From Longicatena caecimuris (GTDB lineage Bacteria > Bacillota_I > Bacilli_A > Erysipelotrichales > Erysipelotrichaceae): a DNA stretch of 64,000 nucleotides. Below, piece by piece: positions 41,278 to 49,548 of this stretch; within the stretch, counting starts at the first letter, position 1; each line of letters starts with the position of its first letter. Made by a program: the position numbers and the translations under genes. The DNA lies in assembly GCF_004341945.1 (NCBI RefSeq), contig NZ_SMBP01000001.1:86001-150000 (forward strand), in the 5' to 3' direction. The notes beneath the pieces are model-generated. The model made no database searches and was not told the origin of the DNA. It saw only the letters and a program-made list of their open reading frames with translations.

Positions 41278-42180
41278 ATGCACAAAAAAATTTGTTTGCT
41301 GATTGCTTTTTTATTACTCTGTACAAGCTGTTCCTCCAATCAACAGGATAAGGTCAAAGAGGCAATGGAATCCTATCCCAAATCTCCAGCTGTTACAGAA
41401 AACCAAATCCTATATCCTAAAGAGCTGGGCAAGGATGTTTTAAAAACAAAAATAGCTATCATTGACTATACCCAGTGCAATGATGGATATATTTATGTTC
41501 ATGCGCAATTTAAAGATAACAAAAAAGTGAAAATTCAAATTGCGAAAGGTGAAACCAAATATAATTACGATTTGCACAAAGATGAAGCAACGGCATTACC
41601 TTTACAAATGGGAAGTGGTAATTATCTCGTTAAGGTGTTGCAACATATGGAACAAAACCAGTATGCCATCGTAGATGTGATTGAATTTCATGCCGATATA
41701 AAAGAAACTACATCACCTTTTCGTTATCCAAATCAAATTGCATGGTATGAAAAAGGTGATGACATCATTTCCTTTGCTTTAGATACCGTAAAAGATGCGG
41801 ATAATGATTTAAAACGGATTCATGATATTTACAACAAAGTTGCACAAACGATAACTTATGATGATGCAAAAGCAAAGCAGGCTTCTAATAAATATATGAT
41901 TCCAAATCTGAAAGACGTGCTGAAGCGTAAGCGGGGGATTTGTTTTGATTATGCTGCTTTGATGACAGCAATGTTGAGAATCAACCATATTCCAGCACGC
42001 TTGATTTGCGGAAATACGGATATCGAATATCATGCCTGGGTGGAAGTTTATGTAGAAGGACAAGGATGGGTCAATCCGGATATTTATGTAGATGAGGAAA
42101 CCTGGACTAGAATTGATCCAACTTTTGCAGCGCAAAAGTTTCAATACGATGGATCTTATGATGCGGTTTATTATTATTAA
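41278..42180 (+). CDS. Lipoprotein with transglutaminase-like domain
   Basis: A 300-aa secreted lipoprotein with signal peptide ending in lipobox LLCTSC (Cys at about 19). The C-terminal transglutaminase-like core has the catalytic Cys in RKRGICFDYAALMTAMLR, the His in EYHAWVEV and an Asp in VNPDIYVDEETW. These extracellular domains are often peptidases or scaffolds; the target is unknown. Only 23 nt separate it from the first pilus gene and no terminator lies between, so they may be co-transcribed. Confidence 0.85.
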   Translation: MHKKICLLIAFLLLCTSCSSNQQDKVKEAMESYPKSPAVTENQILYPKELGKDVLKTKIAIIDYTQCNDGYIYVHAQFKDNKKVKIQIAKGETKYNYDLHKDEATALPLQMGSGNYLVKVLQHMEQNQYAIVDVIEFHADIKETTSPFRYPNQIAWYEKGDDIISFALDTVKDADNDLKRIHDIYNKVAQTITYDDAKAKQASNKYMIPNLKDVLKRKRGICFDYAALMTAMLRINHIPARLICGNTDIEYHAWVEVYVEGQGWVNPDIYVDEETWTRIDPTFAAQKFQYDGSYDAVYYY

Positions 42181-42203
42181 ATCGAGTAGGAGGTGTTAAG
42201 GAT

Positions 42204-43232
42204 ATGAATATAAATATGCAAAGCCGTCATATGTTGTTTCTTCAGTTTGGTTTGATACTTCAAGCAGGCTATGGTTTGGAGCAGGGACTTCATCTGATTG
42301 CTGAACAGCTAGATGAGCAGGAATTGAAAACACTGGTATGCCGGTTAAATGAAGAAAGAGAAAAGCAGCCAACATTGGCAGATGCTTTTGCTGCTTGTGA
42401 GGTATTTGATGATTTCACGATCCATATGATTTCCATAGGGGAAATCAGTGGTAATTTAGATGAAGTGATGTTATCATTAGCTGATTATTATCAGCGTATG
42501 GATGAAATGAGCAATCAATTGCGACAGGCTTTGAGCTATCCTATGATCTTACTGCTGATGATGCTTTGTGTAGTAGGTGTGGTTGCATGGAAAGTATTAC
42601 CTCTATTTCAAGATGTATTACGTTCTTTGGGAAGTGATTTATCTACACAAGCAGTTATGTTTATGCAATTCGGAAGAATTTTTTCAATGGCTGTCTTTGG
42701 GCTTTTGTTGTTGCTAACAGCGGGTCTTATTGTTTTCTTATTGTATGCAAAACGCCAAAAAGAAGATGCTGCAACCTTATTTCTATTCCATAGCCCCTTT
42801 TTCAAAAAACTTCGTCATATTTCTCTTTTAGCGCAATTGACGTATGCACTTGCTATGCTTTTGCGCAGTGGCATTGATCTGCGTGAAGCAATGCAATATG
42901 CATGTTCTTTACTTCCCAATTGCGAAATCATTGATAAGTTGCAGGCTTGTGTTCAAGGTATGAATGAAGGTGAATCTTTTTGCGATGTGATTCGCAAAGA
43001 ACAGTTATATGAAGGTCTTGCGTTGAATTTTATTGAAATAGGTTTTACCAGTGGAAAAGGGGAAGCGGTCATGCAACAGCTAAGTGATGAATATCAACAG
43101 GAAGTATCACATAAAACTGAACATTATCTTAATGTGATTGAACCAATCATCGTATTGTTATTAGCCGTAATCATAGGTGTTGTCTTATTATCTATCATGT
43201 TACCACTGGTGAGTATTCTCTCTTCACTATAG
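42204..43232 (+). CDS. Type IV pilus / type II secretion inner-membrane platform protein (PilC/GspF-like)
   Basis: A 342-aa platform protein with two T2SF repeats (residues about 7-125 and 210-330), three main membrane segments, and conserved ISIGEISGNLDEVM and FIEIGFTSGKGEAVMQQL, both variants of the GE.SG..D motif. Such proteins connect cytoplasmic ATPases to pilin assembly. The partner here appears to be the PilT-type ATPase 2.5 kb downstream. SD ggaggtg. Confidence 0.88.
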   Translation: MNINMQSRHMLFLQFGLILQAGYGLEQGLHLIAEQLDEQELKTLVCRLNEEREKQPTLADAFAACEVFDDFTIHMISIGEISGNLDEVMLSLADYYQRMDEMSNQLRQALSYPMILLLMMLCVVGVVAWKVLPLFQDVLRSLGSDLSTQAVMFMQFGRIFSMAVFGLLLLLTAGLIVFLLYAKRQKEDAATLFLFHSPFFKKLRHISLLAQLTYALAMLLRSGIDLREAMQYACSLLPNCEIIDKLQACVQGMNEGESFCDVIRKEQLYEGLALNFIEIGFTSGKGEAVMQQLSDEYQQEVSHKTEHYLNVIEPIIVLLLAVIIGVVLLSIMLPLVSILSSL

Positions 43233-43241
43233 AGGTGTAAC

Positions 43242-43550
43242 ATGCAAAAAACACTACATGGACTGCTATTTCTTGGTATCTTATTGTTATTTGTGTTTGG
43301 TTTTCAATCAGCTGCTTCTTTCAACAAAAGAAATGAACAACAACAAATTACGGAAACCATTCAGAAATTAACTTTAAAATGTTATAGCATAGAAGGAAGA
43401 TACCCTACATCAATTGCTTATTTAAAAGAACATTATGGTTTATTGATAGATGAAGAAGAATATCGTGTTAATTATCATTATGAAGGAGCAAATATCGCTC
43501 CGCATATCGATGTTTATAAAAAGGGGCGAATTTATGAAAACGCATCATAA
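43242..43550 (+). CDS. Small membrane protein of the PilC/PilT cluster, pilin-like
   Basis: A 102-aa protein with an N-terminal membrane helix (residues about 7-25) and a short external domain containing CYSIEGRYPTSIAYLKEHYG, a pattern seen in some minor pilins. There is no G/F-T-x-x-E prepilin cleavage motif. It follows the PilC gene by 9 nt and overlaps the next gene by 17 nt. Function is inferred only from context. Confidence 0.7.
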   Translation: MQKTLHGLLFLGILLLFVFGFQSAASFNKRNEQQQITETIQKLTLKCYSIEGRYPTSIAYLKEHYGLLIDEEEYRVNYHYEGANIAPHIDVYKKGRIYENAS

Positions 43551-43989
43551 TCTGTATTTGTTAGTTTCGTTATTGTTACTGCTACTATTTGCGGCAGGCT
43601 CCTTTTCTTTATTATCTACGGAAATATTTGCTTATCGCCGTCTGAATGAAACAATCCAATCGCAAGAAGATGTTAGTCTTCCGCTTGCTTATGTGCATAC
43701 AAAATTGAAACATGCCAGTGCACGGGGACAAGTTGCTTATGTGACAAAACCTATTACCTGTTTACAGATTAAAGAAAAAGAGACAGTAACCTATTTGTAT
43801 TATCAGGATGGCTATATCAAAGAAATTACGGCTGTTTCCAGTTATCAACCTACCTTTGAAGAAGGAACTAAGCTGTTTCAAGTAGATGCTTTTACAATAA
43901 TTGAGAAACAAGATTGTTTCCTTTTTACAGTTGAGAAAGATGGTAAAAAAGAACAGTTAAGTATATATCTGTATGGAAAGGCGGGATAG
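43534..43989 (+). CDS. Pilus-cluster membrane protein, DUF4860-like
   Basis: A 151-aa protein with one N-terminal membrane helix (LYLLVSLLLLLLFAAGSFSLL) and an external beta-rich domain (residues about 40-150) with TKPITCLQIKEKETVTYLYY. It resembles DUF4860 proteins that accompany type IV pilus genes in Firmicutes; I am fairly but not fully sure. ATG 43534 follows aaaggggcg. It overlaps the next gene's ribosome site. Confidence 0.7.
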   Translation: MKTHHNLYLLVSLLLLLLFAAGSFSLLSTEIFAYRRLNETIQSQEDVSLPLAYVHTKLKHASARGQVAYVTKPITCLQIKEKETVTYLYYQDGYIKEITAVSSYQPTFEEGTKLFQVDAFTIIEKQDCFLFTVEKDGKKEQLSIYLYGKAG

Positions 43990-43990
43990 A

Positions 43991-44365
43991 ATGAAACACA
44001 CGCAACGATCCTTTTCCTTTTTAATGGAATTTGTCATCATTTTGTTTTTCTTTGCTTTAGCAGCTACTATCTGTGCAGGTTTCTTACTAAAGGCAAAAGA
44101 AAAAGAAGCAACGGCCATTACCTTACAACATGATTTATTACAAGCACAAAGTATTATTGAAGAATTGCAAATAGCATCTGATGTGCCTTTTGAACAGCGA
44201 TTTGATAGTATTAAAAAAGATGAATTGAACTATCAAAAAGGCAATATGAAAATCATATTTAACGATAAAGCTTTATCATCTGGCAAGATACAGTTATGGC
44301 ATGAAGATGTCATCTTATGTGAGATACCTTTTGTTTTAGGAGAAATTTATCATGCGTACGAATAA
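43991..44365 (+). CDS. Pilus-cluster membrane protein, possible minor pilin
   Basis: A 124-aa protein starting MKHTQRSFSFLMEFVIILFF: a short basic leader, then a hydrophobic helix with Glu at a position comparable to +5 of prepilins. The cleavage residue is Ser rather than Gly. The external part has QAQSIIEELQIASDVPF. ATG 43991 follows aaggcggg. It overlaps the next gene by 14 nt. Confidence 0.68.
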   Translation: MKHTQRSFSFLMEFVIILFFFALAATICAGFLLKAKEKEATAITLQHDLLQAQSIIEELQIASDVPFEQRFDSIKKDELNYQKGNMKIIFNDKALSSGKIQLWHEDVILCEIPFVLGEIYHAYE

Positions 44366-44747
44366 GAATCATATACTGCCCCTTGGACTAGGTATACCAA
44401 CATTATTTACTTTATTTGTTATTTTAGTTATGCTGATGTTGGCTATTTTAACATATGTGAGAGCAAATAGTTATTATGTTTCAACCATTCGCCAGATGGA
44501 ATTTACAACAGATTACTATGAAACAAAGGCTAATCTTATGGATATCTATAGACAACTAGAACCTAACCATTTGGATGAACAGTTAAAAAAGATGAAAATA
44601 GATTATACAAAAAAGGAAAATCTCTATATAATAGAGGAAGATATGAATAATGGAACAGCGTTGCAGTTGCTTTTTCATAAACAAAATGATGAGATTGTTA
44701 TACAAACCTGCCAGATGATAGATAAGGGTGATGAAAATGGAAATTAA
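44352..44747 (+). CDS. Pilus-cluster membrane protein, pilin-like
   Basis: A 131-aa protein with a basic leader (MRTNKNHILPLGLG), one long membrane helix (residues about 13-38) and an external domain. Leader and helix resemble a minor pilin although the usual Glu is absent. It overlaps the PilT gene by 11 nt, so the two are translationally coupled. Confidence 0.68.
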   Translation: MRTNKNHILPLGLGIPTLFTLFVILVMLMLAILTYVRANSYYVSTIRQMEFTTDYYETKANLMDIYRQLEPNHLDEQLKKMKIDYTKKENLYIIEEDMNNGTALQLLFHKQNDEIVIQTCQMIDKGDENGN

Positions 44748-45792
44748 AGCATTGTTAGAAGATGTAGTTAAACGCAAAGCTTCGGATGTGTTTATTGTCG
44801 CTGGTTCTCCTTGCGCTATTAAAATAGATGGCAAGATTGAGCCATATGATGATAAAAGGCTTATGCCTCAAGATACCGAACAAATGATTCGTGATATTTA
44901 TACGATTGCCAAAAAGGATGATATTGAAGATTTTATACATAATGGTGATGATGACTTTTCTTTTTCCATACCTCAAGTTGGACGTTTTCGTGTCAATGCT
45001 TATCGTCAACGCAATTCCTTTGCAGCTGTCTTACGTATCGTTAGTTTTTTATTACCAGATCCTAAAATCATGCATATTCCTTCTATCGTAATTGACTTGG
45101 CAAAACAAATGAAAGGGATGGTACTGGTAAGTGGACCTGCGGGCAGTGGAAAATCGACGACACTGGCTTGTATCATTGATCAAATTAATAATTCACGTAA
45201 TTCTCATATCATAACAATTGAAGATCCGATAGAATATTTGCATACCCACAAGCAAAGCATTGTTTCACAAAGAGAAGTTTATCATGATACCAAGGATTAT
45301 GTATCAGCTTTAAGAGCGGCTCTTAGAGAAGCACCTGAAGTCATCTTAGTTGGAGAGATGCGGGATTTAGAAACGATTGAAATATCTGTAACAGCAGCTG
45401 AAACCGGTCATTTGGTGTTTTCGTCATTACATACGATTGGCGCTGCTAATACAATTGATCGCATGATTGATGTTTTTCCAGCAACACAACAACAGCAGAT
45501 TCGCGTACAGCTATCCATGGTGTTGAATGGTGTGGTTTCTCAGCAATTGTTGCCAGGGAAAGATGGTAAGATGTTACCAGTGTTTGAAATCATGCTATGC
45601 AATCAAGCCATTCGCAATCTGATTCGAGAAGGAAAGACACATCAGATGCAAAATACGATAACGGCAAATCGCGCCAGTGGTATGATTACCATGGATGATG
45701 CTATTATTGAAGCTTACAAGCAAGATAAGATTACCAAGGAAACAGCGATCATGTATGCAAGTGATGCACGCTATGTAGCTAGTAAAATGTGA
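44737..45792 (+). CDS. pilT: PilT-type ATPase (pilus retraction or twitching motor)
   Basis: A 351-aa hexameric secretion ATPase. The N-terminal PAS-like domain ends in a conserved arginine region (VGRFRVNAYRQR). The Walker A is GPAGSGKS (133-140). EDPIEYLH and VGEMRDLETI (Walker B region) follow. The C-terminal AIRNLIREGKTHQMQ is the hallmark of PilT rather than PilB/ComGA assembly ATPases. ATG 44737 has best spacing from aaggg; ATG 44731 is possible. A terminator follows, separating it from comG. Confidence 0.88.
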   Translation: MEIKALLEDVVKRKASDVFIVAGSPCAIKIDGKIEPYDDKRLMPQDTEQMIRDIYTIAKKDDIEDFIHNGDDDFSFSIPQVGRFRVNAYRQRNSFAAVLRIVSFLLPDPKIMHIPSIVIDLAKQMKGMVLVSGPAGSGKSTTLACIIDQINNSRNSHIITIEDPIEYLHTHKQSIVSQREVYHDTKDYVSALRAALREAPEVILVGEMRDLETIEISVTAAETGHLVFSSLHTIGAANTIDRMIDVFPATQQQQIRVQLSMVLNGVVSQQLLPGKDGKMLPVFEIMLCNQAIRNLIREGKTHQMQNTITANRASGMITMDDAIIEAYKQDKITKETAIMYASDARYVASKM

Positions 45793-45855
45793 TTTTATTT
45801 AATAAGTATTTTTATGAAATTTTCAAAGATATCAATCGGATTGCTAAGCTATGTG

Positions 45856-45880
45856 AACAGTCAATTTGACTGTTTTTTTT
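45856..45880 (+). terminator. Terminator between pilT cluster and comG operon
   Basis: Perfect 8-bp arms aacagtca / tgactgtt with a 3-nt loop and T8. Confidence 0.9.
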
Positions 45881-45975: not shown

Positions 45976-46965
45976 TTGAAAGAGAAACTGGATGCTATAT
46001 TGCATATAGCGCTGCAAAAACAAGCGACAGACATTCATTTTGTTAGTACAACACAAGGATTATCAGTTACTATGCGCTGTGAAGATGGTGTCTTGCCAAT
46101 ATATAGTGCTGCGGCTGATAAGAGCTTGTTTAACTACTTGAAATATATAGCGCATTTAGATCTTGGGTTAGGGCAGACGGCGCAAAGTGGAAATTTTCAA
46201 TATGAATTTCAAGGGGAATGCCTGCAATTTCGCTTTGCATTGTTATCCACGTTGCAAAAGCAGACGGCTGTGCTTCGCATATTGAATAATCATACAGGCA
46301 TTTGTCTGGAAACTTTGAGTTATGATAAAAAACAACAACAGATTTTTCACTCATGGTGTCAGGCTAGAAACGGTTTGATCGTATTAAGTGGGCCAACTGG
46401 TAGCGGCAAGACAACAACTCTGCATGCCATGATGCAATATATTGCAAAAGGTGGAAAACAACGCGTTGTTTCTTTAGAAGATCCTATTGAAATTGTTGAT
46501 GACTCTTATCTGCAACTTCAAATTAATGAACAACATCATTTTTCTTATGAAGAAGGGATTAAGGAACTGCTTAGACATGATCCGGATGTCATAATGATTG
46601 GCGAAATACGAGATCCGATGAGCGCCCGGATGCTGATGCGTAGCGCATTGAGCGGTCATCTGATTTTTACAAGTGTTCATGCAAAAAGTTGTCTGGAGGT
46701 GATCTATCGCTTGCATGAATTTGGTTTGAGCAAAGAAGATTTGCGGCAGACATTGACAGGTATTACATCGCAGCGTTTGTTTCATCGACGAAAAGGGAAA
46801 GGAAGGGTTTGTATCTATGAAGTATTGGATCAGAATGAAATTATCACTTATTTCAAGCAAGGTGAACTGCCTTCAACGCATGAAAATATGGAAATGCAAA
46901 TTGCGAGCGCAATTCGGGCAGGTACGATTCAAGAAGAAGCGCAAGAAGACTTTCTCTTTCGATAA
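45976..46965 (+). CDS. comGA: Competence pilus assembly ATPase ComGA
   Basis: A 329-aa GspE/PilB-type ATPase that drives assembly of the DNA-uptake pilus. Motifs are DIHF near the N-terminus, Walker A GPTGSGKTTT, LEDPIEI and MIGEIRDPMSARMLMRSALSGHLIFTSVH (read in parts). The start codon is TTG 45976, fixed by gaggagg 8 nt upstream. The Cys4 zinc motif of larger GspE proteins is absent, as in other ComGA. It overlaps comGB. Confidence 0.92.
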   Translation: MKEKLDAILHIALQKQATDIHFVSTTQGLSVTMRCEDGVLPIYSAAADKSLFNYLKYIAHLDLGLGQTAQSGNFQYEFQGECLQFRFALLSTLQKQTAVLRILNNHTGICLETLSYDKKQQQIFHSWCQARNGLIVLSGPTGSGKTTTLHAMMQYIAKGGKQRVVSLEDPIEIVDDSYLQLQINEQHHFSYEEGIKELLRHDPDVIMIGEIRDPMSARMLMRSALSGHLIFTSVHAKSCLEVIYRLHEFGLSKEDLRQTLTGITSQRLFHRRKGKGRVCIYEVLDQNEIITYFKQGELPSTHENMEMQIASAIRAGTIQEEAQEDFLFR

Positions 46966-47905
46966 AGAATCATTTACTATGTTAATGGAACTTTTAAAAA
47001 GTGGGTGTTCATTACAGGATGCAATAGCTTTTTTACCAGGGGACGTTACATGGCTAAATGATAAACTGCAAGCAGGGGAAGAATTTTCTACAATTTTGCA
47101 AGAAGATAATCGCCCCTGGATTCGTCATTTTACTTTTTTTTATCGTATGAGTTCACTTCCTGTTGCTATGGAAGAGGCTTTACGTATGACAGACTTTGAG
47201 GAAGGGCTTAAGAAAAAATTCCTGCGACAAAGTGCCTATCCTATGCTTATTCTCTTTCTTTCTTTTGCAATGCTACAACTTTTCACAAGTGCCATCATAC
47301 CCCAAATGTTAGAAAGCTTTGCGATGGAGGAAACATTCTCCCTTACGCAAATACTGTTACATATTTTACAAATATGCAGTATGGGCTTTTTCATATGTGT
47401 AATCATGACTTTGCTTGCTTTTTTATATTTAGCTTCACATGCTAAGATTCGTGGCCGATTTCTATACACTGCAGCAAAAAAAAGCGAAGTGATCCGTTGC
47501 TATTGTTCCTATCTATTTGCTGGATATATAAAGGAATTAGATACATGTGGAATCGCGACGATGCATGCACTTCAGTTCTTGCAAGAAGTTCCGATTTCAT
47601 GGATGTGTGAAATGGCAAAACGTATGCAAAAACGATTAGAACAAGGAGAAGCATTCTTACATGTTTTGGAAACAGAGAGGTTACTATCTAAACAGCTGTA
47701 TCGTTGTTTACAAATGCGTATGTTGACACAAGAAAGTGATAAACCTATGCAGCTTTATCTGATACAACAAGAACAGTATTGGAATCATTTGCTTAAGAAA
47801 TGTAGTTATCTCTTACAAGGAATTGCCTATGGATTTGTCGCTGTGCTTGTCATCTTAGTCTTTCAAATTTTAATGTTGCCTTTGCAAATGCTGGAAACGA
47901 TATAA
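46880..47905 (+). CDS. comGB: Competence pilus platform protein ComGB
   Basis: A membrane protein of about 341 aa with the T2SF fold: an N-terminal FDKESFTMLMELLKSGCSL region, three membrane segments near 130-150, 180-205 and 315-338, and a shortened second repeat. The exact start is uncertain. ATG 46880 and ATG 46817 both lie inside comGA and neither has a clear SD. It is more divergent than the PilC-like protein at 42.2 kb, so the two platforms are not recent duplicates. Confidence 0.85.
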   Translation: MKIWKCKLRAQFGQVRFKKKRKKTFSFDKESFTMLMELLKSGCSLQDAIAFLPGDVTWLNDKLQAGEEFSTILQEDNRPWIRHFTFFYRMSSLPVAMEEALRMTDFEEGLKKKFLRQSAYPMLILFLSFAMLQLFTSAIIPQMLESFAMEETFSLTQILLHILQICSMGFFICVIMTLLAFLYLASHAKIRGRFLYTAAKKSEVIRCYCSYLFAGYIKELDTCGIATMHALQFLQEVPISWMCEMAKRMQKRLEQGEAFLHVLETERLLSKQLYRCLQMRMLTQESDKPMQLYLIQQEQYWNHLLKKCSYLLQGIAYGFVAVLVILVFQILMLPLQMLETI

Positions 47906-47919
47906 GGAGGATTTACATT

Positions 47920-48219
47920 ATGAAAAACGAAAAAGGCTTTACGATCTTAGAGATGATGATCGTTCTTTCCATCATTGCTCTTGTCTTTTTATTGACATTG
48001 CCGAATATTCAACAAAAGGAAAAAATCATTCGCAAAAAAGGATGTGAGGCTTTAATTGAAGTTGTAAATGCACAGATCTTATTGTACGAAATAGATAATC
48101 TGACAACGCCGACAAGTGTGGATTCATTGATTCAAAAGGGATATTTAAAAAGCACACAAAAGCGTTGCCCTAATGGTGATACGATCTATCTTTCCAATGG
48201 ACAAGCTTATGCAAAATGA
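47920..48219 (+). CDS. comGC: Major competence pseudopilin ComGC
   Basis: A 99-aa prepilin with leader MKNEKG, cleavage motif KGFTILEMMIVLSI (Glu at +5) and a short C-terminal domain. Two Cys (CEALIEV, KRCPNG) could form a stabilising disulfide as in known ComGC. It builds the DNA-uptake pilus shaft. SD aaggagg. It overlaps comGD by 11 nt. Confidence 0.94.
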   Translation: MKNEKGFTILEMMIVLSIIALVFLLTLPNIQQKEKIIRKKGCEALIEVVNAQILLYEIDNLTTPTSVDSLIQKGYLKSTQKRCPNGDTIYLSNGQAYAK

Positions 48220-48592
48220 GAAAGGCTTTACCTTAGTAGAAATGTTAGTAACAATAAGTATTTTACTGCTGATCATGGCTATTTTTCCATTTTTAAAGCC
48301 ATCGCGGCAATTGGCATTCACCTGTGAAACGGAAAAGCTTCATTCCTTTTTATTACAAGCACACATGAAGGCCATGTTTACTAAAAAAAACATGTACATC
48401 CAATTTCAAACAGATGGTGTACAAGCGGGAGAGGAGTTTTTTATATATGACAATATGTACTGTGAGGGAAAAGCGTTTCATTACACAAAACAAGGAACCA
48501 TTTCACAAGCCCAAACGATCACTTGTTCGCTACAAAATAAGAAAAAAACCATCGTGTTGCAACTCGGCAGCGGCGCTATTGACGTACGATAA
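48209..48592 (+). CDS. comGD: Competence minor pseudopilin ComGD
   Basis: A 127-aa minor prepilin with MQNEKGFTLVEMLVTISILL at the N-terminus, so processed at G/F with Glu +5. The C-terminal domain is beta-rich. ATG 48209 lies in the comGC 3' end; the frame upstream to 48173 was rejected. It overlaps the next small gene by 14 nt. Confidence 0.9.
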   Translation: MQNEKGFTLVEMLVTISILLLIMAIFPFLKPSRQLAFTCETEKLHSFLLQAHMKAMFTKKNMYIQFQTDGVQAGEEFFIYDNMYCEGKAFHYTKQGTISQAQTITCSLQNKKKTIVLQLGSGAIDVR

Positions 48593-48746
48593 AAAAGGAT
48601 TTTTGTTGATGGACGCCTTGATCTTACTTTTGCTTTGCTCGCTTTGTTGTTTGCTATTGATCAATTGCTGTATGACAGTTACTTCTTGGTATGCCAGTGA
48701 TCAAGAGCTAAATAATGAAAAGGTAAGGGAAATCTATGCAAAATAA
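48579..48746 (+). CDS. comGE: Competence minor pseudopilin ComGE-like, short
   Basis: A 55-aa product from TTG 48579 with KKGFLLMDALILLLLC, a prepilin-like motif with Asp in place of Glu at +5, and only about 25 residues after the helix. The position between comGD and comGF matches comGE. The start is uncertain, because the frame is open further upstream without an ATG. It overlaps both neighbours. Confidence 0.65.
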   Translation: MTYDKKGFLLMDALILLLLCSLCCLLLINCCMTVTSWYASDQELNNEKVREIYAK

Positions 48747-49128
48747 TCATGGTTTTACTTTAATTGAAATGCTCTTAGCCCTTTTGATCATTTCCTTTGC
48801 TATTGCATTGTTACCACCTTGTCTATCAATCGTTAAACAATTGTTAAAGGATGAGCGCTTCACTGATGATCGTATAGCAATCCATCAATTGCGTCAAATC
48901 ACTGCCATGTCTAGTGAGTATCTTATGCAAAATCAAAAGGTGATTTTGCAACGAGGGGATGAGGAAATTCAGTTGTTTTATGATCGTATGCGAATTGTGA
49001 AGACACCCGGTTACGAAATATATTTAGAACATGTTGACAATGCTGTTTTCTATGAAGATAATAGCTGTCTGCATCTGTTCTTAAAACGAGGCCATTATGA
49101 AAAAGATGCCATACTTGGTTGCAAATGA
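48736..49128 (+). CDS. comGF: Competence minor pseudopilin ComGF
   Basis: A 130-aa minor prepilin (NNHGFTLIEMLLALLIISF) with the ComGF-like soluble domain (YLMQNQKVILQRGDEEIQLF). Position in the operon and size agree with ComGF. It overlaps comGE by 11 nt and comGG by 32 nt. Confidence 0.88.
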   Translation: MQNNHGFTLIEMLLALLIISFAIALLPPCLSIVKQLLKDERFTDDRIAIHQLRQITAMSSEYLMQNQKVILQRGDEEIQLFYDRMRIVKTPGYEIYLEHVDNAVFYEDNSCLHLFLKRGHYEKDAILGCK

Positions 49129-49548
49129 TCATGGATTTGCCAGTTTATATGGCTTATGGGTGCTTTCTTCCATCTTATTGTGTATTTCTTTATTTACGAT
49201 GCGTTTGGTTACGTATACCCAACTTCGAAAATCAGAAGATCTTATGGATGTGTTTATTCTACATACCGTACAAAAACAGTTAAAGAATGAGTATGCTAAT
49301 AATAAACATGATAAGGAGGTGATAGAAAGGAAGGAAGAGAAACAGGATACATCGCATTCGGCAAAGGAAGACGATAAGGAAGTGGAAAACAAGCCTTACT
49401 ATTTTTACAAAACATATGCAAATTGTACATTACAATTTCGTTGGGAGATACAGATGTATATGTAAATGGAGATTGTCTCAATGAAACTATGCACATTTAT
49501 TTAGATGAACAATGTCATAGCATTGTATCTTTTGCATATGAAACCTAG
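49097..49548 (+). pseudogene. comGG: comGG-like pseudopilin gene, apparently frameshifted near its 3' end
   Basis: The in-frame product (122 aa, stop at 49465) has HGFASLYGLWVLSSILLC, a ComGG-type N-terminus without the usual Glu, then a charged linker (KEVIERKEEKQDTSH). Directly after CTLQF the -1 frame stays open and encodes LGDTDVYVNGDCLNETMHIY and further plausible beta-strand sequence to a TAG at 49548. One missing T in the tract near 49435-49440 would restore a protein of about 150 aa. It may be a real mutation, a sequence error, or a tolerated truncation. Confidence 0.6.

Follow-up and report, generated by a model that had tools for sequence, protein, structure and literature searches.

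A candidate PilT-only pseudopilus operon beside comG in Longicatena caecimuris, widespread in gut Firmicutes

According to a 2023 review, pilins, a prepilin peptidase, an extension ATPase and a platform protein are common to all type 4 filament systems, and the last residue of a pilin leader is Gly or Ala (PMC10191384). The generic model of a 2019 survey of the superfamily requires an ATPase, a platform and a major pilin, and MSH loci without a peptidase always co-occur with a peptidase-bearing system (PMC6668835). Here we analyse a seven-gene operon, hereafter termed the cassette, at positions 41278–45792 of a 64,000-nucleotide stretch of the Longicatena caecimuris genome (the window, to which all coordinates refer). 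Compared with the definitions in these two papers, the cassette belongs to the superfamily by homology yet lacks two core features: it appears to dispense with the extension ATPase and the prepilin peptidase, which are among the four proteins said to be universal in such filaments. No published description of it was found among the open-licence literature. We consider it likely that 41278–45792 is a single operon encoding a stand-alone, PilT-only pseudopilus machine outside the neighbouring Com pilus. We also lean, with more reserve, towards regarding this machine as a new type 4 filament family, free of PilB and of prepilin peptidase, in which PilT is the only motor and a short uncleaved pseudopilus is coupled to a surface transglutaminase-like enzyme.

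Genes and proteins of the cassette

The genes follow the order TGlip-PilC-S1-S2-S3-S4-PilT, and several of them overlap. The cassette and the features that follow it are:

41278..42180, + strand: TGlip, first cassette gene, encoding a lipoprotein with a transglutaminase-like domain (PF01841, 82.7 bits)
42204..43232, + strand: PilC/GspF-type platform protein, 342 residues (PF00482, 142 bits)
43242..43550, + strand: S1, short, putatively uncleaved pilin-like protein, 102 residues (AlphaFold2 (AF2) fold; motif CYxxEGxYPxxLxYLxxxYG)
43534..43989, + strand: S2, DUF4860 protein with a predicted GspJ-like minor pseudopilin fold (PF16152; AF2 model)
43991..44365, + strand: S3, predicted GspI/ComGE/PilV-like minor pilin that keeps the E5 glutamate and has lost Gly-1 (sequence matches)
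44352..44747, + strand: S4, possibly PilX/GspK-like protein with a single transmembrane segment and a nearly invariant Gly14 (weak assignment)
44737..45792, + strand: PilT-family hexameric ATPase, sole motor of the cassette (TIGR01420, 426.6 bits)
45855..45875, + strand: terminator-like hairpin ending the cassette before comG (9-bp stem, 3-nt loop, T run)
45976..49465, + strand: comGA-comGG operon, a separate neighbour outside the machine (ComGA and ComGC profile matches)

A sequence-only reading of the window had set the unit at 42204–45792, which omits TGlip and thus starts one gene too late. The six genes it named are all intact open reading frames, and its description of them stands: a PilC-like platform, four small proteins with a single transmembrane segment, a PilT-type ATPase carrying AIRNLIRE (residues 291–298), and a terminator between this group and the comGA-GG genes that follow.

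The ATPase and the platform place the cassette in the type 4 filament superfamily. PilT, a member of the PilB/PilT family of secretion ATPases (ATPases associated with diverse cellular activities, AAA+), lies well over the TIGR01420 cut-off of 319 bits in the profile search and also matches PF00437 (150 bits). Its Walker A, Walker B, Asp and His boxes are intact, and the catalytic motifs are among the 43 columns that are invariant in 60 cassette PilTs. The platform protein qualifies through its PF00482 match to the PilC/GspF family. Pilin-fold subunits, the third mark of the superfamily, are represented by S2, S3 and S1 and, weakly, by S4.

The clearest of these subunits is S2, for which PF16152 (DUF4860) was matched in 57 of 57 homologues. 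Its sequence had no match in the PDB. Its AF2 model (predicted local distance difference test score, pLDDT, 92.7) gave seven top structural matches that are all GspJ proteins (XcpW, EpsJ, GspJ; Z 8.0–9.0), the next unrelated entry lying at Z 5.4. DUF4860 thereby gains a fold and a likely role. The S1 model (pLDDT 92) consists of a 50-residue helix, a short helix and two strands, and has a tiny head. By sequence S1 had no significant family match, and Foldseek E-values alone gave none either; its likeness to pilins emerged solely in a second structural comparison, in which type IV pilin 4d40 matched best (Z 5.5; root mean squared deviation 2.4 over 65 residues), modest evidence that is aided by a common YP motif. 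The models show S1 to have a predicted minimal pilin fold and S2 to fold, as predicted, like GspJ. S3 is, by its sequence, a putative GspI/ComGE-like minor pilin: Glu13, at the place of E5, is invariant, and members match ComGE (13 of 54, best 9e-7), PilV (10) and XpsI (6). S4 can be called PilX/GspK-like only weakly, with PilX_N matches in 5 of 55 members (best 8e-4) and Gly14 present in 90% or more. Taken together, S1–S4 look like a pseudopilus tip complex with one short pilin added.

A prepilin leader was not seen in 59 homologues of S1, nor in the homologues of S2. The residue at −1 of S3 is not conserved (G 12, S 11, F 8, R 4 and others), nearly all S3 proteins are without a leader, and the −1 residue varies freely whether or not the genome encodes a peptidase. 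A class III signal peptide, with its leader ending in Gly or Ala, was thus not seen in S1 and S2 and is not a conserved feature of S3; the exception is S3 of L202 and L207, the deepest cassette branch, which keeps the canonical leader QRG/FALVE; the peptidase gene present in these two genomes is located away from the cassette. The S3 proteins of L202 and L207 stand midway, as a natural intermediate, between pilins that are cleaved and those without a leader.

TGlip is the first gene in most intact cassettes. Across 34 homologues its lipobox Cys18 is nearly invariant and Cys222, His252 and Asp280 are invariant; the nearest solved structure is 3isr (E 6e-10). One copy (L198, in genome G423) has about 2 kb inserted between S4 and PilT and a broken lipoprotein reading frame, and is possibly decaying or hit by a mobile element.

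Distribution and ancestry

Among 60 Erysipelotrichales genomes, a close relative of the cassette PilT was found in 20 and a full cassette in 19; at L055 PilT stands alone. The gene order in these cassettes is constant, apart from a small number of cases in which TGlip or S4 is missing or was not recognised. Scanning a collection of named genomes with the PilT alignment located the cassette in Lachnospiraceae, Oscillospiraceae, Blautia, Pseudobutyrivibrio ruminis, Mogibacterium, Family XIII and other Clostridia. Every PilT of at least 510 bits in the mapped loci lies in a cassette, wherever the contig reaches that far, and those of 490 bits or less in the collection scan lie outside cassettes, mostly in pilB-pilT-pilC loci. 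Within the class Bacilli, a phylum-wide sample yielded the cassette PilC (>350 bits) solely in Erysipelotrichales. In two groups of Clostridia, both drawn at a completeness of at least 95%, the cassette PilT is present in 41 of 120 and 22 of 118 genomes. Prevalence is about a third in the sampled Erysipelotrichales and Lachnospiraceae-type genomes and a fifth in those of Oscillospirales type, many of the relatives' genomes being drafts or metagenome-assembled genomes. The cassette is widespread in gut Firmicutes. The same genes recur in the same order in 19 Erysipelotrichales and at some 40 loci besides, so that the arrangement goes beyond chance; both order and overlaps are conserved in about 60 loci overall.

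Phylogenies of the ATPases and platforms, a check proposed in the sequence-only reading, were built for the cassette proteins. All 60 cassette PilTs form one clade (Shimodaira–Hasegawa-like approximate likelihood ratio test, SH-aLRT, 99), which also holds one lone PilT from a genome in which the remaining cassette was not found. This clade is nested among classical Clostridia PilTs, and the main PilT of the window's own genome lies elsewhere in the tree. In the PilC tree, from which the ComGB outgroup (a long-branch artefact) and two long cassette rows were left out, a single branch parts the cassette PilCs from all classical ones (SH-aLRT 100). The trees show a single apparent origin for the cassette PilT and likewise for the cassette PilC. 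Copies from Clostridia and Erysipelotrichales interleave, which suggests that the cassette may have spread horizontally between the two. Because its PilTs nest among the classical ones of Clostridia, loss of pilB, pilM/N/O and pilD is a likely history for the cassette.

Independence from other systems and alternative readings

An argument for a stand-alone machine comes from 12 genomes: nine drawn at a completeness of at least 95% (G495, G499, G509, G514, G547, G568, G575, G578 and G587) and three more (G335, G346 and G352). In Pfam searches of these genomes the cassette PilT was the only real T2SSE-family ATPase, the remaining matches being short P-loop hits, and PF01478, the prepilin peptidase family, had no match. 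Neither an extension ATPase nor a peptidase is encoded in the cassette itself. The cassette order was verified in all but G514 and G509, whose contigs start inside the cassette and inside PilC, respectively; in G499 the lipoprotein gene lies downstream of PilT. G575 is essentially one 2.34-Mb contig. As these 12 genomes hold no other T2SSE-family ATPase and no peptidase, the cassette would be a stand-alone machine without two of the four universal proteins, and their gene content shows it to be apparently independent of other filament systems there.

The window's genome (2.95 Mb, 99.96% complete) presents a richer setting, with three systems: a type IVa pilus (T4aP), the Com pilus and the cassette. 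The T4aP locus (contig C13:122-10696) looks complete: it encodes PilB, a second PilT, PilC, PilD and PilM/N/O-like proteins, and three large pilins as well. Matches of prepilin type on contigs C15 and C30 may include the T4aP major pilin. With these T4aP proteins as queries, the partners pilB, pilM/N/O and pilD were undetected in cassette loci, which hold only pilT and pilC of that set. The sequence-only reading had named a full second pilus locus that co-varies with the cluster as evidence against itself, and this was borne out in part: across Erysipelotrichales a T4aP is present in 10 of 19 cassette genomes vs 2 of 41 others (p 6e-5, uncorrected for relatedness), and the remaining nine of the 19, as well as whole groups of Clostridia, carry the cassette without one. 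In genome G006 the T4aP locus (L208) is interrupted by an integrase-like gene and the cassette is intact; no PF01478 match was found there, an absence that may be real, yet Pfam false negatives are possible.

These data bear on the possibility that the cassette works as an accessory module, with PilB, ComGA or TadA and PilD, ComC or TadV borrowed from another filament system of the same cell. Another type 4 filament system is indeed present in most hosts, the association with T4aP is in line with such borrowing, and peptidases can be common to several systems (PMC6668835). We nevertheless judge it unlikely, given the 12 genomes that lack any other secretion ATPase and a PF01478 peptidase, one of them essentially a single contig, and the unconserved residue before the cleavage point of S3. 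Separately, ATPases of 410–440 residues that co-occur with the cassette in Clostridia were considered as the missing extension ATPase and rejected: in those loci that were inspected they proved to be TadA of Tad loci. In Pseudobutyrivibrio ruminis, TadA is the only such ATPase besides PilT.

In the stand-alone machine that we favour, S1–S4 would stay uncleaved and anchored in the membrane, forming a short pseudopilus or tip complex and not a long pilus on the cell surface. As sole motor, the PilT hexamer would turn or pull PilC, which would transmit the movement to this short piston. The machine may thereby act on the surface enzyme TGlip, or on the substrate of TGlip in the envelope, by positioning, moving or controlling it. 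Cyclic di-GMP (c-di-GMP) and BTAD or sigma-factor control may act on it in several hosts.

In Erysipelotrichales, a BTAD regulator whose GGDEF-like domain is degenerate lies just 3′ of PilT on the same strand at L061, L063, L058, L098, L050 and L046; such a regulator was not found in the 64-kb window. GGDEF-family proteins are encoded on the same strand, no more than about 100 bp before the lipoprotein gene, at L048 (PAS-GGDEF), L049 (Cache-GGDEF-EAL) and L059, and this direct upstream position suggests c-di-GMP control of the cassette. Lachnospiraceae-type cassettes often lie 3′ of an extracytoplasmic function (ECF)-type sigma factor and a protein with a single transmembrane segment, maybe an anti-sigma factor (L103, L107, L108, L197, L199 and L200), and a sortase gene adjoins the cassette in some Clostridia (L105, L193, L190 and L114). 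The GGDEF/EAL, BTAD-GGDEF, sigma-factor-like and sortase neighbours point to a regulated surface behaviour, without indicating a specific substrate. The GGDEF or EAL enzymes and BTAD-GGDEF regulators, together with the putatively uncleaved subunits, would also fit a static mechanosensor or signalling complex in place of a mechanical device. This seems to us quite improbable, as the strongly conserved hexameric motor ATPase and its platform suggest movement and the invariant extracellular enzyme suggests an effector.

The sequence-only reading had left open whether PilT serves the Com pilus as a retraction motor or belongs to an independent pseudopilus-like device that has no assembly ATPase of its own. 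The former has two attractions, in that the cassette lies directly upstream of comG in the window's genome, where ComGC is over its profile cut-off (NF040999, 90.8 bits against 75) and ComGA under it (NF041000, 276.7 bits against 300), and in that Com pili otherwise lack a PilT (PMC10191384). A terminator separates the two units, however, and the adjacency was seen in the window's genome only: no comG genes were found near the 18 other Erysipelotrichales cassettes or at the other mapped cassette loci. As to the co-occurrence of the small proteins with comG that the sequence-only reading had proposed to examine, most comG-bearing Erysipelotrichales have no cassette. Many Clostridia, conversely, have a cassette with neither ComGA nor PilB found, and the cassette comes with a platform and four pilin-like proteins of its own. 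Of the two readings, the separate device is the one supported. No link to or dependence on comG emerged across genomes. As the cassette and comG occur apart, the Com retraction motor was rejected on distribution, and we regard it as very improbable. That the cassette is the decaying remnant of an old T4aP locus that lost pilB and pilD is scarcely credible: its PilTs do nest among classical Clostridia PilTs and a few copies appear broken (the L198 insertion, the lone PilT of L055), but the catalytic motifs are all invariant across two classes and gene order and overlaps are maintained in about 60 loci.

Several observations weigh against a stand-alone, peptidase-free machine. To our knowledge PilT acts solely as a retraction motor, and here it would have to work without an extension ATPase. 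The absence of PilB and peptidase rests on Pfam searches of draft or metagenome-assembled genomes, and the nine genomes of at least 95% completeness are not all independent lineages. The assignment of S4 is weak and the structural Z-score of S1 modest. Because S3 of L202 and L207 has a canonical leader, at least one cassette subunit was probably cleaved ancestrally. Finally, the co-occurrence with T4aP in Erysipelotrichales makes cooperation there possible.

Comparison with known filament systems

If PilT alone powers the machine, it offers a natural minimal system in which to test the division into pushing and pulling motors. The cassette also marks out gene clusters for which annotation as Com or as type IV pilus retraction should be avoided.

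The cassette shares homologous PilT and PilC with the T4aP of Clostridia, within whose PilTs its own branch. It differs in having no PilB, PilM/N/O, PilD or major pilin with a class III leader, and in adding a transglutaminase-like lipoprotein. Its small proteins recall the type II secretion tip (GspI-GspJ-GspK with GspG): S2 has the predicted GspJ fold, S3 is GspI-like, S4 perhaps GspK-like and S1 a short pilin-like protein. The pairing of GspE with GspI, GspJ and GspK that marks type II secretion is incomplete, with I- and J-like subunits present, the K-like one uncertain and PilT in place of GspE; secretin, GspL/M and peptidase are missing and the leaders are lost.

Like the Com pilus, its neighbour in the next operon of the window's genome, the cassette is a minimal monoderm system with a platform and one ATPase. 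Com, by contrast, includes an extension ATPase and ComC and its prepilins have leaders, whereas the cassette occurs without comG and its PilC and PilT are not relatives of ComGB and ComGA. With the Tad pilus it may have in common that one ATPase does all the motor work, as set out for CpaF (PMC11300603). The Tad ATPase and platform belong to other families and Tad pilins are cleaved, and Tad and the cassette occupy separate loci within the same genomes.

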